From: Negativicutes bacterium
Lineage (GTDB): Bacteria; Bacillota_C; Negativicutes; Acidaminococcales; Acidaminococcaceae
Length of the DNA: 6,487 nt
Assembly (NCBI GenBank): GCA_009930275.1
Contig: RZYP01000118.1
Span: 1 to 6,487, forward strand
Direction of reading: 5' to 3'
In this document: in pieces, positions 1-6,487 of the stretch
How the letters are laid out: every line of letters begins with the position of its first letter
Numbering within the stretch: position 1 is the first letter of the stretch
The notes under the pieces: generated by a model
Databases searched by the model: none
The model's input: only the letters and a program-made list of their open reading frames with translations
What the model was told of the DNA's origin: nothing
Position numbers and translations under genes: made by a program

Positions 1-1779
1 CGGCGCGGATAAATAACTTATAAGGCAAGCGGCACTCCTTCTTTTGGCCTGAATGCCTTCACCTACGCAGGTAATCCAATAAGGATATATGTTAGGCATA
101 TCACCGGTGGCAATATCCGGATAACATGCGTCAGACATAGCATTACCTTTACCGGGAAGCCATTCCAAATTGCCATGCGTTCCTACATGAATCATAGCAT
201 CCGCCTGCCATACGTCCCTGATCCAATAATATACGCCTAAATAATGATGTGTAGGCGCACAATCAGGCGAATGGTAAATTTTCCCAGGGTCATCGCCAAA
301 ACCACGTGGCGGCTGCACTGTTATATAAACATTACCGTTCAACATACCGGGAACGATAATTTCATCATCATAACGGAAAACATCTCCCGGTGCTTCTCCC
401 CAATCCCTCACCAAATGTTCCTTTGTTTTTTGCGGTTGTTTGGCAAAAAATTCTCCGTACTCTTCTTTGCTAAGCCTGCCATCAGCTTCTTTAATGAGTT
501 TTTCGGAAATAAAACGCCTGTCATTTGTGGCATGCGCAGTAATATCTTCGATAAAACTTTGACTGTTATCCGGTATATTGGCAACGCAATACCCCTGTTT
601 CTGCATTTCCTCGAGCAAAAGCCTGATACTTTCAATAGAATCCAGGCAAGCCGCACTGCCAATATTAGAATTTGTAGGCGGATAATTGTGAAATACAATT
701 GCTATTTTTTTGTCTCTATTATTTTTCTTACGCAGCAGGCCCCATTTTTTTGCTTTTCTTGCCAACATATTAATACGATCTTCAAGCGGTTTTCTAAAAT
801 GAGTACCATCATCTGCTTCTTCTCTGGAAGAAACCGGCACTGAATGAATTACACCATCAAACTCCGGCATGGCCACATTATAGGAAACCTCATTCGGCGT
901 CAACCCCACCATATTTTTCTCCCACCATTTGAAATCCATATAAAGGTTGACTATCTGTAAAATCGGTACACCAAGGCTCTGCAAATCAGACAGCTTTAAA
1001 AAGCCTGTGTTTGTGAGAGAAAAAACAAATGGATTCAGCAAAACATCAATAACAACCTTACCATCTATATAAAAGAATTTTTTTAGGCTATCCGCCAGTG
1101 AAGGTGCTCCTGTTTTTGAATCGGCCATCGTATTCGTGAAAAGAGGTATTATATTGCAGCCCTCTTTTTCTATTTGTTTGATAATTTCATCCTGATAATC
1201 AAACTTATTCCAAAGCCAGTCTTCACGTGAAAAAATTAAGCCAACAGTCGGAAGCTCAGGATTGCAAAATTTCAAGCAATATTCACGAACATCAGTGAAA
1301 GCATTTTTTACTGACGGGTGATATATAGCTGCCCAGGGTAGTTCTGTAGGCGGCTCAAAAACATATTGCCAATTACTATAAGAACTGCCAAGCCACAAAC
1401 ACAAATTAGTATAGTTCTTAATTCCACCAAGAGAAAAATATTTCTTAATCGTATTTATTTCTTCCTGCGAGATTCCATAGTCCATTACATCATCCGCAGC
1501 TTGTATCGTGTTATATAGGTGTTTTTTATTCTTTTTCTGCATAAATAGGGAAGATTTTCGTAAAAAATCACAGCATAGACCAGTTCCCATCCAGGTGAAA
1601 AGAACAAAATCACTGTCGGCTATATCTTTTTCCCATCTTGAATTCCATTCCTCATTATCATCAATTTGAACAGGAATGATGTTTCTAACTTTGCTGTTCT
1701 CACCAACAATATTTGCAATAGCTTCTTTCATGCCAATAAAGTGATTTTCCATATTAGTTATAAAAAATATTTTGCCCAT
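1..1779 (-). CDS. cobN: CobN/BchH-family chelatase large subunit, N-terminal 593 residues (partial, 3' end outside window)
   Basis: The frame is open from an ATG at 1779 to the window edge with no stop and no frameshift, giving 593 residues. CobN-type proteins usually have about 1,200-1,300 residues, so roughly half is visible. Family signatures in order are: GIYHP-like AIYHPS (~151-156), PEFDGVIHS (~305-313), the HNYPPTNSNIG block (~364-374), WGEAPGD (~460-466), VPGMLNGNVYI plus QPPRGFGDDP (~476-498), HSPDCAPTHHY (~503-513), GTHGNLEWLPGKG (~533-545) and GEGIQAKRR (~573-581). In the family, this subunit binds the tetrapyrrole and, with an AAA+ partner (CobS/CobT or ChlI/ChlD-like), inserts Co or Mg. 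The homologue HmuS is tied to haem iron acquisition. No AAA+ partner gene is visible, and the gene follows a BtuF-like gene by 21 bp. A role in corrinoid or other tetrapyrrole metal handling is therefore likely, but insertion versus removal cannot be decided. Family assignment is strong; the gene symbol denotes homology only. Confidence 0.9.
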   Translation of the reverse strand, partial: MGKIFFITNMENHFIGMKEAIANIVGENSKVRNIIPVQIDDNEEWNSRWEKDIADSDFVLFTWMGTGLCCDFLRKSSLFMQKKNKKHLYNTIQAADDVMDYGISQEEINTIKKYFSLGGIKNYTNLCLWLGSSYSNWQYVFEPPTELPWAAIYHPSVKNAFTDVREYCLKFCNPELPTVGLIFSREDWLWNKFDYQDEIIKQIEKEGCNIIPLFTNTMADSKTGAPSLADSLKKFFYIDGKVVIDVLLNPFVFSLTNTGFLKLSDLQSLGVPILQIVNLYMDFKWWEKNMVGLTPNEVSYNVAMPEFDGVIHSVPVSSREEADDGTHFRKPLEDRINMLARKAKKWGLLRKKNNRDKKIAIVFHNYPPTNSNIGSAACLDSIESIRLLLEEMQKQGYCVANIPDNSQSFIEDITAHATNDRRFISEKLIKEADGRLSKEEYGEFFAKQPQKTKEHLVRDWGEAPGDVFRYDDEIIVPGMLNGNVYITVQPPRGFGDDPGKIYHSPDCAPTHHYLGVYYWIRDVWQADAMIHVGTHGNLEWLPGKGNAMSDACYPDIATGDMPNIYPYWITCVGEGIQAKRRSAACLISYLSAP

Positions 1780-1800: not shown

Positions 1801-2748
1801 TTATTTAAAGTATTGTGGATAAACACTTTTCGCCAGTATTTCTATGCTATCGGCAGTATATTGCGAAACACAGAATACGCATTTCCCGCTGATTGCGGCT
1901 ATATCATTATTTTGAATGGCCTTGACAGGTTTCAAGCCTTCATCACTCATGATTTCTTCCTTAGTTTGTGATTTCATCATACCATTGGCATCCCAAACTG
2001 TTACTAATATACAATCAGGATTAAGCTGAAGGATTCTCTCCTTTGGCAAACCATTAAATTGGCTTCCTGTTTCTTCAGACAAGCAGTTGCCCACGCCTGC
2101 ATACTTGCACATGTCATCATAAAGCCCACCTTTAGTGCCAAAGCCATCTTTGCCTGTCAGCGCCACTACTCTTTTTCTTTCTGTTTGTGGTATTTTTGCT
2201 GCCTTTAGTTCTACATTTATAATTTTATCATTAAAGACATCGATTACATTCTCCGCCCTTTGCGGCTCGCCAACAACTCGGCCCACTTCTCTTATTGTAT
2301 TTCTAATATCATTGACAGAATAAGGTGTCTTGTAAACATAAACGGGAACGCCCATATCCCTCAATGTCTGCAGCATATCGAGTCCCCACCAATCAGCAAT
2401 CAAGACAAGATCAGGTTTTAACGCCAATATTTCCTCGGCACTGTTGCTTCTAATCTTACTTTTAACCAATGCACTTTTATCTGTTACAAAGGATATACCA
2501 CTATCACTTGCCAGATACGTTAATGCCGCAATACGCTCCGGTTCTACAAGATCAAGCAATATTTCATCAGTGCCAAGAGTAAGGGATATAATCCTTTGCG
2601 GTTTTGCCTTAACATTAACTATTCTGCCTGTCCTGTCTTTAAATGATACACTCTTTTCTTTTTCAGCCTGCGTAATCGAAGAACAACCGCTGATCAAAAA
2701 AGCAAAAACCATCAGAATGAACAACGAAAAAATAATTCTAGGTTTCAT
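1801..2748 (-). CDS. btuF: BtuF-like ABC transporter substrate-binding lipoprotein
   Basis: This 315-residue protein belongs to the helical-backbone (class III) metal-chelate binding proteins (PF01497 type), which bind cobalamin, haem or siderophores outside the inner membrane. A lysine/arginine n-region, a hydrophobic stretch and lipobox ISGC place the lipidated Cys at residue 22. The family pattern follows: QRIISLTLGTDEILLDL (~51-67), then EEILALKPDLVLIADWWG (~105-122), the linking helix (~145-180), and a second lobe with ERILQLNPDCILVT (~237-250). The WW pair after KPDLV lies near where BtuF proteins carry ligand-contacting tryptophan, which is compatible with a corrinoid ligand. Five further Cys are present (214, 222, 246, 290, 293), including a CVFC pair. 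The ATG overlaps the stop of the CbiZ-like gene by 4 bp (ATGA), with AGAGG 10 nt upstream. No permease or ATPase gene is seen. The ligand is inferred mainly from the CbiZ neighbour; haem or a siderophore remains possible. Confidence 0.85.
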   Translation of the reverse strand: MKPRIIFSLFILMVFAFLISGCSSITQAEKEKSVSFKDRTGRIVNVKAKPQRIISLTLGTDEILLDLVEPERIAALTYLASDSGISFVTDKSALVKSKIRSNSAEEILALKPDLVLIADWWGLDMLQTLRDMGVPVYVYKTPYSVNDIRNTIREVGRVVGEPQRAENVIDVFNDKIINVELKAAKIPQTERKRVVALTGKDGFGTKGGLYDDMCKYAGVGNCLSEETGSQFNGLPKERILQLNPDCILVTVWDANGMMKSQTKEEIMSDEGLKPVKAIQNNDIAAISGKCVFCVSQYTADSIEILAKSVYPQYFK

Positions 2749-3899
2749 GATTTCTCAACCTCTTTTTCCAGCAAATCAAGGATAATTTCTTCCCAAATGT
2801 CAATTATGTCTGTTTTGGTTGAAATATTGAAATCTGGGGTTGAACCGGATGCATCATACATTGCACGCAAAATATCGGCCGCCGCCGTACTGGTTTCTTT
2901 GAAACTAAGCAGATCCCAGTTATATTGATCCAAAAGATGCGCTATGAGGCTTGTATATACGAGGGGTTTTTCATCATGATTTACGTTACTTAAAGCTTTT
3001 TCAAACTTTTTCATATCAACGGCAGGATCCTTTATGTTTTTATAATCTTCAAAAAGCCGTTGTTTAGAAATTCCGAACCTATACATACGTCTGTCAATGT
3101 CATGCATCTTTTCACCGCAAAAACCATTTTGCAAAAACAAGGCCTCTTTAACAGCATCTTTGACAACGTGGCCAATAAGTTCTCCTGGCTTAGTGTGTTT
3201 TCCTGTGTCTCCGATAGTAAACTTTGCCTGTGGATTGCTGATTACAATTATCTGGTCGGTTCCTGTACCTGTAGCAAGCCCTTCGGAATATCTGCTGCCC
3301 ACTACCAATTCCTGCAGAGCAGCAGTCTTAGCTTCGGTAGCAGTTACTATTGACCTTGCCAGAACTCCCTGAGGCATATCAGCATTCATATGTAAAATAA
3401 TATTAATTGTCCCTGGTTTCGGCATTTTTTTGTTTTCGAGCGAAGCGTAAAAAGCCTTATCACCTGCGCGTCCCGGATTACCTTCTGCACCTGCCGTGAC
3501 AATAGCAGTCACAGTAAGATCTTTGTATTTCTCACTTTTTATGACAACATTTCTCATCGGTACACCTGTACCCATAGATGAAACTTTCGAAGGATTATAC
3601 CCAAACCTTGTAACTAGTTCATTCATATGCTTAATATAACTTTCTACCGTCATCGGGCCATCATTGGAATGGTTGTTTAAAACAGCCACTAAATCTTTCC
3701 TATAACCGCCATTGAGCAAAGAACTGCTGATAACGTCGCGTTCGCCCCCGAACTCTACTATGACAGTATCCTCTTCACGATAGACTCTATCCCCACCGTT
3801 AAGCATTGCCAATTCTTCTGCTTGCTGCTCAGCAAAACACGCTGCAGGGGTTCCTCCCACCATCATACATAGGGTTAAAACTAACAAATACTTTTTCAT
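2745..3899 (-). CDS. cbiZ: Adenosylcobinamide amidohydrolase (CbiZ family) with signal peptide and C-terminal extension
   Basis: This 384-residue protein carries a CbiZ (PF01955) domain at roughly residues 40-255. CbiZ cleaves the amide linking the aminopropanol (and nucleotide loop) to the corrin ring, giving cobyric acid for salvage or remodelling. Recognisable blocks are MGTGVPMRN (~109-117), TAGAEGNPGRAGD (~135-147), NIILHMNADMP (~166-176), LATGTGTDQIIVIS (~208-221) and TKPGELIGHVVKDAVKEAL (~236-254). The start at 3899 is preferred over an in-frame TTG two codons upstream, because GGGGAA lies 8 nt before it. The first 23 residues look like a type I signal peptide: MKK, then a hydrophobic core, ending CFA before EQQAEE. 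PAAC is not a good lipobox. Typical CbiZ proteins are cytoplasmic and about 200 residues, so export and the mainly helical-looking tail (~residues 256-384, no recognised domain) are both unusual. The gene starts 2 bp after the nitrilase stop and overlaps btuF by 4 bp. Confidence 0.88.
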   Translation of the reverse strand: MKKYLLVLTLCMMVGGTPAACFAEQQAEELAMLNGGDRVYREEDTVIVEFGGERDVISSSLLNGGYRKDLVAVLNNHSNDGPMTVESYIKHMNELVTRFGYNPSKVSSMGTGVPMRNVVIKSEKYKDLTVTAIVTAGAEGNPGRAGDKAFYASLENKKMPKPGTINIILHMNADMPQGVLARSIVTATEAKTAALQELVVGSRYSEGLATGTGTDQIIVISNPQAKFTIGDTGKHTKPGELIGHVVKDAVKEALFLQNGFCGEKMHDIDRRMYRFGISKQRLFEDYKNIKDPAVDMKKFEKALSNVNHDEKPLVYTSLIAHLLDQYNWDLLSFKETSTAAADILRAMYDASGSTPDFNISTKTDIIDIWEEIILDLLEKEVEKS

Positions 3900-3901
3900 A
3901 A

Positions 3902-4675
3902 TCAAAATTCCCCATTCAGTATTTCAAAATTTGCAATACCATCGTTTGCTTTAAATCTACCAAAATCAAACATTAATATCGCTTCTTCACCCGAATATTC
4001 GCAAACCAACTCCCCGCCATAAACCACGGCGCTTTTAGCGATAGTACAATCCATTCCATTATTTATTCCCGTTTGATTACAAACAAATACCGGCAACCCG
4101 CCAGCCCTTACAGAACAACGCCTCCAAGCCTCTTCAGGAGGACCGCCGCACCCTGGCGGCCAGGCTGCAACTACTACTATCGCCTCAGCGCCGGCTTTTG
4201 CCAGTGACTCACCATTATCACCAAACCACGCATCCGCACATACCAATACGCCAATTTTGCGTTCATCACAAACAACAGGCTCCAGCTTACTACCCGGTAC
4301 CGACCACGACTCAGTCACCCAATTAAGTGTTCTGATTTTTCTTTGTCTGCCTACTATATACCCTTGAGCAGAAAATACGAGACAACTATTATATGCCAAA
4401 CCAGTCATATCATCAGACTCACCACAACCAAGAAAAATCGCAACACCATAATCGCGTGCTAATTTTTTAAAAGGTATTGTCATTTTCCCTGATTCTTTAA
4501 AAAGTTCATAAGGGTAGCCTGTTTGTGTCATAAAATAACCCTGCAGAGCCATTTCCGGCGTGATTACCCAATCTGCCCCTGCCTTAGCCGCCCGTTCAAT
4601 ACCTGTCTTTATTTTTTCCAAATTTTTACTTTGAGGTCCTCCGCTCAAATCAAAATGCAAAAAAGCTGCCTTCAT
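3902..4675 (-). CDS. Nitrilase-superfamily carbon-nitrogen hydrolase (amidase-like), substrate unknown
   Basis: This 257-residue protein has the complete Glu-Lys-Cys triad of the carbon-nitrogen hydrolase family (PF00795): E41 in ITPEMALQGY, K113 in GRQRKIRTLNW, and C146 in GVLVCADAWFG. The sequence runs from a first strand (KAAFLHFDL) through AKAGADWVITPE to the late VFVCNQTG block (~197-203), so the fold appears complete. These enzymes hydrolyse amides or nitriles through a Cys thioester. The Cys context (CADAWF) and the short length do not let me name a subfamily. The ATG at 4675 is chosen because AAGGG lies 7 nt upstream; the frame continues 39 codons further but that stretch overlaps the receptor gene. 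With this start there is no signal peptide, so it should be cytoplasmic. It ends 2 bp before the CbiZ-like gene, which suggests a role on corrinoid side-chain or loop-derived amides, but that is inference. Confidence 0.85.
   Translation of the reverse strand: MKAAFLHFDLSGGPQSKNLEKIKTGIERAAKAGADWVITPEMALQGYFMTQTGYPYELFKESGKMTIPFKKLARDYGVAIFLGCGESDDMTGLAYNSCLVFSAQGYIVGRQRKIRTLNWVTESWSVPGSKLEPVVCDERKIGVLVCADAWFGDNGESLAKAGAEAIVVVAAWPPGCGGPPEEAWRRCSVRAGGLPVFVCNQTGINNGMDCTIAKSAVVYGGELVCEYSGEEAILMFDFGRFKANDGIANFEILNGEF
3908..3913 (-). promoter_or_regulatory. Ribosome binding site deciding the CbiZ-like start
   Basis: GGGGAA sits 8 nt before the ATG at 3899, within the last codons of the nitrilase-like gene. 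It is only about 2 nt from the alternative TTG at 3905, which would be too close. This supports the ATG start and the signal peptide beginning MKKYLL. Confidence 0.65.
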
Positions 4676-4737: not shown

Positions 4738-6487
4738 TCAGAAGGAATATTGCATACCAACAACAAAGTTTCTGCCCGGAGAAGAGTACCATTCACCGGG
4801 ATCGCCCCATGCTACGTTGGAATGTTCCGCATAATACTTGTCAAAGATATTATTTGCTTTCAAGTAAACTTTCATATCCTTGTTAACTTTATAATTCAGC
4901 GATGCGTCCCAAACCCAATATGTATCACATGGGAAGGCAGGGTTTGTACCATCACCGGTTCCCGGGCGGTCAATAACGCCATGACCGATAATTGAGGCGT
5001 CAAAATCTTGATTAGTGTAATCTAAATTAAGATGATATTCACCCTTCGGGATATAGGTGTTGGTTGATTCAAAGCCACTGCTGACTGATTTAGATTCGAT
5101 ATGTGTATATCCAACTTTAGCACTAACATTTTTATCAAACTTTTTGTCAAACTGTACATCCCAGCCATTTGCTTTCTCTTCATTAACATTGATATATTTC
5201 CAAGTAGAATAATTAAAACCGATTACATCTTCGGCTTTACGTTTAAAAGCATGTACCCTTACAGCGAAATTGTCATCAAATGCATGGTGTACGCCAATAT
5301 CATAAGTGCGACCGCTTTCCGGTTTCAGATTTTCATTACCGTAAGGACTGTAGTACTGGTACTGATTTGGTGCAACAAAATATTCCTTATAGCCAACAAA
5401 CATATGCGTTTTATCACTGAATTTATAATCTAATGTCGCGCTCGGAGATGTTTCGCCGCCTGCCATGGAGTGATAATCATAGCGCATACCGGTAGTCAGA
5501 TTCCATCTTTGGTCAAAATCCCAGGAATCCTGCACATATACAGATCTGTTATTAAGCTCTTTCCCTTTGTAATTGGTATACATATCGTCATAATCTTTGA
5601 TTTTTTCTTTGTAGTAATCTACGCCGGCAACCAATGTGTTATTTTCATTTAACTTGTTGGTATACTGGTCACTGAAACCAACAGTCTGCAAATCCATCAT
5701 CCAATTGTCATAGTCAGTTTTTGTATTTTGGCTGTATACGGCAAATTGATTGTTCTCTTTTTCAGTAAATTGCGTGTTATGAATGATACGCCAATTGTAA
5801 TTATCCGCTGTACCGTAATGTCTTTCAGTGACATCATAATTTGTTCCGGAATACATATAGTCAGCAGTATATTTGTCATAGATCATCGTTAAATCGGAAT
5901 GATCATTGATTTTTTTGTTAACTTTTAAATTTATAGTATCGGAATTCAACCGCGCCGGTACTTCTAAATTGTTACCATCTTCGTATGAACCCATCTTGTC
6001 TTTTTGCACGCCTACTACCCAGCTATAATCACCATTTCTGCCTTCATGACTTAATCGGTACTGTTCTTTATCATAGCTGCCAGTTTCGCCTGATAACACC
6101 GTCTTTTGCTTGTCACCGGCCTTTTTTGTGATAATGTTGATAACGCCGCCTTTGGCATCAGAACCATAGAGCGTAGAGGCTGAACCCTTCAACACTTCAA
6201 TGCGTTCAACATTATCAAGTGCTTTGAAGGCACCAAAGGAGAATACGGCAAAGGTACTGCCATTCATATTGGCACGCGTACCGTCAATCAAAACCAATAT
6301 TTGGCTTGTGCCATTAATTTGAATGCCTTCTGATTGTTCATAGCCTACACCACCGCCATATCGTGTAATTGTAACCCCCGGCACGGTGCGCAATGCTTCT
6401 ACCAAGTCAGAATAATGATTTTTTTCAATATCCTCTCTGGTTATAACGTTAATATTTGCATTAGCTTCAAATTCCGTTGTTGCCATT
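4738..6487 (-). CDS. TonB-dependent outer-membrane receptor, BtuB-like (5' end outside window)
   Basis: The visible part is 582 residues from an ATG at 6486, but this Met is probably internal. TonB receptors normally have a signal peptide, a TonB box and a few residues before the plug, and none of these is seen, so the true start should lie beyond 6487. Residues ~8-122 form the plug (PF07715 type): INVITREDIEK, LRTVPGVTI, LVLIDGTRAN, VERIEVLKG and the hallmark SASTLYGSDAKGGVINIITKK. The rest is a beta-barrel (PF00593 type) with alternating aromatic strands, ending in NIFDKYYAEHSN, SSPGRNFVVG and a C-terminal MQYSF, whose final Phe is the usual barrel-assembly signal. The receptor imports a large ligand across the outer membrane using TonB-ExbB-ExbD energy; those genes are not in the window. 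The size is close to cobalamin receptors (about 600 residues), and the CbiZ and BtuF-like neighbours point to corrinoids. Haem or siderophore use is not excluded. Confidence 0.93.
   Translation of the reverse strand, partial: MATTEFEANANINVITREDIEKNHYSDLVEALRTVPGVTITRYGGGVGYEQSEGIQINGTSQILVLIDGTRANMNGSTFAVFSFGAFKALDNVERIEVLKGSASTLYGSDAKGGVINIITKKAGDKQKTVLSGETGSYDKEQYRLSHEGRNGDYSWVVGVQKDKMGSYEDGNNLEVPARLNSDTINLKVNKKINDHSDLTMIYDKYTADYMYSGTNYDVTERHYGTADNYNWRIIHNTQFTEKENNQFAVYSQNTKTDYDNWMMDLQTVGFSDQYTNKLNENNTLVAGVDYYKEKIKDYDDMYTNYKGKELNNRSVYVQDSWDFDQRWNLTTGMRYDYHSMAGGETSPSATLDYKFSDKTHMFVGYKEYFVAPNQYQYYSPYGNENLKPESGRTYDIGVHHAFDDNFAVRVHAFKRKAEDVIGFNYSTWKYINVNEEKANGWDVQFDKKFDKNVSAKVGYTHIESKSVSSGFESTNTYIPKGEYHLNLDYTNQDFDASIIGHGVIDRPGTGDGTNPAFPCDTYWVWDASLNYKVNKDMKVYLKANNIFDKYYAEHSNVAWGDPGEWYSSPGRNFVVGMQYSF

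Follow-up and report, generated by a model that had tools for sequence, protein, structure and literature searches.

The stretch of DNA examined here comprises 6,487 nucleotides (positions 1 to 6,487 of contig RZYP01000118.1, assembly GCA_009930275.1, from a Negativicutes bacterium) and is referred to as the window. It carries five large genes, all on the minus strand, in the order TonB receptor, nitrilase-family hydrolase, CbiZ, BtuF-like protein and CobN-type protein. Characterised CbiZ is an internal salvage enzyme, which removes the tail of B12-like vitamins. The CbiZ of the window begins with a predicted signal peptide, and the evidence that it is exported, together with what an exported CbiZ may do, is the subject of this analysis. 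The features of the window are given below.

2745..3899, minus strand: exported CbiZ (predicted), 384 amino acids; PF01955 at residues 49–250, E 5.5e-58.
3831..3899, minus strand: signal peptide, residues 1–23, Sec type I-like, with the probable cut after CFA; from the leader scorer and homologue comparison.
3909..3913, minus strand: ribosome-binding-like GGGGA upstream of the cbiZ ATG; by direct reading.
3150..3755, minus strand: CbiZ catalytic domain, residues 49–250; PF01955, conserved positions and an N-terminal nucleophile (Ntn)-type (DmpA/NylC/OAT) fold in the model.
3408..3413, minus strand: Gly163-Thr164, candidate self-cleavage site and nucleophile; from conservation and alignment with the S58 nucleophile.
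2748..3122, minus strand: CbiZ C-terminal helical domain, residues 260–384.
1801..2748, minus strand: BtuF-like binding protein with a lipobox (ISGC, by direct reading); PF01497, E 1.7e-25.
3902..4675, minus strand: nitrilase-family carbon-nitrogen hydrolase without a signal peptide by the leader scorer; PF00795, E 2e-26.
1..1779, minus strand: CobN-type chelatase subunit, truncated at the end of the window, without a signal peptide by the leader scorer; PF02514, E 5.3e-155.
4738..6486, minus strand: TonB-dependent receptor with its N-terminus cut off; best NCBIfam match TIGR01779 (B12 receptor).

The gap between the nitrilase stop and the cbiZ ATG is 2 nucleotides, and the 3' end of cbiZ overlaps btuF by 4 nucleotides. 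The TonB receptor scored 214.7 bits against the TIGR01779 B12 receptor model, below the cut-off of 599.7, and an Rfam scan of the window gave no match.

Residues 1–23 of CbiZ read MKKYLLVLTLCMMVGGTPAACFA and are followed by EQ. This leader has a basic n-region, an uncharged 11-residue core with a mean Kyte-Doolittle value of 2.62 and a C-x-A motif before the likely cut, with the n-, h- and c-regions of a Sec type I signal peptide present in order as judged with our own calibrated scorer. The scorer required a net positive n-region and an 11-residue core that was uncharged and reached at least 1.8 (Kyte-Doolittle), and was calibrated on the proteins of neighbouring genes: a leader was called in 0/47 proteins of nine cytoplasmic families, 8/10 binding proteins and 11/14 TonB receptors, with doubtful calls in 2/15 ATP-binding cassette (ABC) ATPases and 1/10 ChlI/D proteins. 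A preliminary description of this DNA had proposed a 23-residue leader with a hydrophobic core and a CFA/EQ cut, and this was borne out by both direct reading and the scorer. It had also called the ribosome-binding site good; the site is present, as GGGGA 9 nucleotides from the ATG, and is better graded as adequate than as strong. In 29 homologues chosen as exported, the leaders had a mean identity of 27%, compared to 51% for the mature part, and no leader core fell below 2.0; the 27 residues that follow never exceeded 1.45. A cysteine at about −3 from the predicted cut (C-x-x; window 3831–3899) recurs in many exported leaders, without a lipobox. A bacterial lipoprotein reading of CbiZ was rejected on the same ground, as there is no lipobox and the PAAC sequence has proline at −3, in contrast to the lipobox consensus.

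The leader was carried by 56 of the best 120 of 2338 homologues. A single-sequence scan of genome contigs found no relative, and an alignment-based scan (A1) of the contigs gave 482 relatives, from which 79 loci were kept. Five of these 79 loci from named genomes (L001, L002, L003, L005 and L023) had the leader, all in the class of Sporomusa ovata. Across 380 genomes of that class, 113 contained a CbiZ match and nine the exported form; the DNA was read for 110 of the 113, leaving out G026, G294 and G094, whose matches spanned 31 to 56 residues. All nine exporting genomes have a further CbiZ match that lacks a leader, the second copy of G004 being interrupted, and two or more matches were seen in 13 of the other 104 matching genomes, two of these 13 being one gene in pieces. 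S. ovata, a cultured acetogen, carries one exported CbiZ and one internal CbiZ (L003, L012). Elsewhere, no leader was found in 44 CbiZ open reading frames, a few genomes contributing twice; these came from the phylum of a Treponema metagenome-assembled genome (296 genomes, 11 with CbiZ) and from that of Clostridium ihumii (398 genomes, 50 matching, at most 30 loci read).

A quick tree was calculated without the leader; it comprised 112 of the 179 non-redundant rows, with 35 signal-less rows drawn at random. All 35 signal-bearing rows fell within one 44-row set with a Shimodaira–Hasegawa-like approximate likelihood-ratio test (SH-aLRT) support of 94, nested among signal-less CbiZ, and a single gain of the leader is the simplest history. 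Nine of the 44 rows have no leader in their database entries; of these, P0013, P0023, P0025 and P0031 retain the apparent last leader residues and are probably truncated entries. Cysteines averaged 3.0 in the 44-row set compared to 5.1 in the 68 signal-less tree rows, these rows being related to one another, and the window protein has one; the lower number may be as expected outside the cytoplasm.

An AlphaFold model of the window CbiZ had a mean predicted local distance difference test score (pLDDT) of 89.4, with residues 1–20 at about 55, and its folded domain begins at the strand of residues 28–32, where signal-less relatives start. This place would also be the start of a cytoplasmic CbiZ, synthesised from about residue 30 with the leader either mis-called or unused, a reading that we regard as very improbable. 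Homologues that start near residue 25, which the preliminary description had named as evidence against export, do exist, as 70 of the 74 signal-less loci from the alignment-based scan have a start with a ribosome-like site near the domain border. These loci, however, form the internal branch from which the exported clade springs, and neither the window nor the nine exporting genomes have an ATG with a ribosome-like site from 14 before to 6 after the domain start. At the domain border of the window there are TTG30 and ATG32, both without a ribosome-like site; the position of the upstream start is supported by its ATG lying 2 nucleotides past the nitrilase stop and by the btuF overlap at the 3' end. 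Three further points count against export: three of the nine exporting genomes (G090, G005 and G305) have weak GTG/TTG candidates close to the border, preceded by a ribosome-like match of four bases, some database proteins of the clade begin at a methionine just past the leader, and P0014, P0026, P0028, P0039 and P0041, inside the clade, show no leader trace in their protein sequences. Set against these is the retention of the leader property at 27% identity. Export of the window CbiZ is a well supported prediction, drawn from the start position, the leader kept across the clade, the second signal-less CbiZ in 9/9 genomes and a predicted domain start at about residue 28.

The match of the window CbiZ to PF01955 reached 196.6 bits (cut-off 27) and covered profile positions 1–191 of 191, while the CbiS model NF038002 gave 54.7 bits, under its curated cut-off of 250. 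Outside the exported clade, 135 rows define 34 positions with a conservation of at least 95%, and the window protein keeps 32 of them, deviating by T59S and A113V. Where the exported and the signal-less branch both reach a conservation of at least 75% at a position, they always have the same residue. The conserved positions and the cobamide gene context argue against the exported CbiZ having some other amide as its substrate, possibly in common with the neighbouring nitrilase, which we consider improbable. In favour of this alternative, a nitrilase-family gene adjoins cbiZ in the window (3902–4675) and in relatives of both the exported and internal kinds (L122, L126, L130, L135, L136 and L137), and the fold family includes amidases of many substrates.

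That fold is of the DmpA/NylC/OAT Ntn-type hydrolases, to which the CbiZ model matched. Gly163 and Thr164 are each kept in 177 of 179 rows and were aligned to the G/N-S/T nucleophile column of S58 with a profile score of 30.7, compared to 29.0 for BtuF, an unrelated control and the best of 11 control families; ArgJ scored 19.7, and a larger CbiZ alignment 24.0. As the S58 score is about equal to that of the control, the link between CbiZ and the Ntn hydrolases rests on structure. A Pfam scan of the window CbiZ gave no Peptidase_S58 match at E 0.01 and no ArgJ match, and a sequence search of the PDB returned no solved CbiZ relative, only chance-level rows. Thr164 is the candidate Ntn-type nucleophile. 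Two variants of the domain architecture were observed: an exported CbiZ of CTSoil_078 (L131:5464-6990) bears a C-terminal DUF3887-type domain, the exported form of S. ovata likewise having 508 amino acids, and CbiZ domains also occur in open frames of some 700 residues, which may be fusions, in L238 and L244 from the phylum of the Treponema genome.

Cobalamin riboswitches were found in 7 of 8 exported CbiZ regions, the scan covering exported loci, and stand ahead of a same-strand gene run in L122, L128, L129, L131 and L132. The clearest uptake run is L132 (G305), where a cobalamin riboswitch, BtuF, ExbB, ExbD, TonB receptor, MATE, exported CbiZ, FecCD and ATPase follow one another on one strand. 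L122 shares CbiZ, nitrilase, BtuF, CobN and TonB receptor with the window. CbiB and CobS, needed for rebuilding from cobyric acid, are present in 8 of 9 exporting genomes, so cobyric acid could be rebuilt there. The riboswitches and some uptake operons make removal of the nucleotide loop before inner-membrane transport plausible, and the BtuF-like protein is hypothesised to deliver cobyric acid.

The signal peptide, the clade, the second CbiZ, the conserved residues, the predicted fold and the riboswitches are computed features; the reaction, substrate, nucleophile and transported form of the exported CbiZ are inferred, as follows. CbiZ would be made with a Sec signal peptide and work in the periplasm of a two-membraned Firmicute, Negativicutes-like to judge by its relatives and the TonB receptor. 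Cobamides or cobinamide would enter this periplasm via a TonB receptor. There CbiZ would cleave the amide through which the corrin ring holds the aminopropanol/nucleotide loop, with Thr164 as the probable Ntn-type nucleophile, and the BtuF-like lipoprotein would hand the resulting cobyric acid, a corrinoid without its loop, to an ABC importer, after which the cytoplasm would rebuild its own cobamide. Export would in this way separate stripping from rebuilding and spare the newly made cobamide. On balance we lean, without great confidence, towards an exported CbiZ that strips cobamides or cobinamide during uptake, with import of cobyric acid and rebuilding inside. The most complete version, in which a self-processing Ntn-type CbiZ acts in the periplasm, the importer carries cobyric acid, the second CbiZ works inside and the whole family has the DmpA/NylC/OAT fold with Thr164, is put forward only tentatively.

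Several observations weigh against stripping during uptake. Archaeal CbiZ needs an adenosylated substrate, which is scarce in the periplasm. Within 5 kb, BtuF was found in 2/9 exported compared to 22/38 signal-less loci and FecCD in 1/9 compared to 18/38, while TonB receptors were alike (5/9 and 17/38); the 38 signal-less loci are of the Negativicutes type, hand-picked, with at least one counted twice. The signal-less partner CbiZ lies 20 kb or less from the exported gene in three genomes (G090, G301 and G002) and two of the nine exported regions (L131 and L133) are short contigs, so the importers may simply sit with the partner. L127 (Anaerospora) showed no riboswitch and, within 5 kb, neither a TonB receptor nor BtuF or CobN. 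CbiB and CobS are missing from G004, where the two CbiZ contigs are 8–10 kb long and the assembly is perhaps incomplete. Efflux genes are the other adverse point, as AcrB, HlyD, MacB and MATE were present within 5 kb of 2, 3, 1 and 2 of the nine exported loci compared to 0, 0, 0 and 1 of the 38, and the same numbers among all 74 signal-less loci. Efflux-type genes (MacB/HlyD/ABC-2, MATE, AcrB/HlyD) lie near exported CbiZ on the same strand in L124, L125, L128, L129 and L132, with MATE, AcrB or MacB directly upstream in L132, L129 and L124. Finally, Rhodobacter sphaeroides CbiZ cuts pseudocobalamin, not cobalamin (PMC7733943, cited here and below from excerpts).

The pumps, and the relative rarity of importer genes beside exported CbiZ, suit the main rival, in which the exported CbiZ serves gating or disposal: foreign cobamides would be degraded at the envelope and the fragments expelled by pumps. 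We consider this unlikely but the most serious of the alternatives. Against it stand the TonB receptors in 5/9 exported regions, the riboswitches in 7/8, the possibility of cobamide rebuilding in 8/9 genomes, and the window itself, which has BtuF and a receptor and no pump. Either periplasmic salvage or envelope disposal would keep stripping apart from rebuilding; periplasmic loop removal in uptake fits the observations best.

Other genes were observed around CbiZ. AP-endonuclease-2 genes occur in CbiZ runs (L130:1228-2202, L132:13957-14934, L134:8067-9035 and L137:4920-5900) and are CbiR-like by family only, assigned by Pfam in L137 and by clustering in L130, L132 and L134. CbiZ and a CbiR-like protein, two different loop-removing enzymes, may thus act together. 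Nitrogenase-like NifH/NifDK genes are found in the B12 loci L125, L128, L132, L133 and L134, HGD-D and Fe-S membrane genes in L122, L128 and L131, and a BadF-type ATPase in L122 and L128. CbiK beside exported CbiZ lacked a leader in 3/3 cases.

How remodelling cells spare their freshly built cobamide is a question raised for CbiR, and coupling to uptake has been suggested for CbiZ (PMC7733943). If the uptake reading is true, stripping outside and rebuilding inside would answer this question by location, and cobamide remodelling would be split between two compartments, with the second CbiZ inside. Some bacteria would then trim foreign B12 forms outside the inner membrane before import, and their importers would see cobyric acid and not intact cobamides, which matters for predicting the sharing of B12 forms. 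S. ovata, which has CbiZ of the exported and of the internal kind, makes the idea directly testable, and the fold match would offer a testable catalytic residue for CbiZ, a family without a solved relative in the sequence search.

Searches for CbiZ and cobamide remodelling among open-licence papers, as far as excerpts allowed, turned up no statement on an exported CbiZ. The adenosylcobinamide amidohydrolase CbiZ of Methanosarcina and R. sphaeroides (PMC7733943) resembles the window protein in its full-length PF01955 domain, conserved residues and cobamide gene context. The window protein differs in having a signal peptide, with the mature form predicted in the periplasm, and an extra C-terminal domain that is common to its signal-less relatives. 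Compared with DmpA, NylC, BapA, ThnT and ornithine acetyltransferase (OAT), which are Ntn-type, CbiZ has no Pfam S58 or ArgJ match and a profile link about equal to the control. CbiR of Akkermansia muciniphila likewise opens cobamide remodelling and its gene is sometimes beside transport genes, but it belongs to the AP endonuclease 2 superfamily and cuts the phosphoribosyl bond (PMC7733943). The HmuS de-chelatase operon of an anaerobe likewise has a CobN-type gene next to a TonB receptor, but acts on heme and not on a corrinoid (PMC12583661, also from excerpts), and for the CobN-type protein of the window the scorer showed neither a leader nor an N-terminal anchor.
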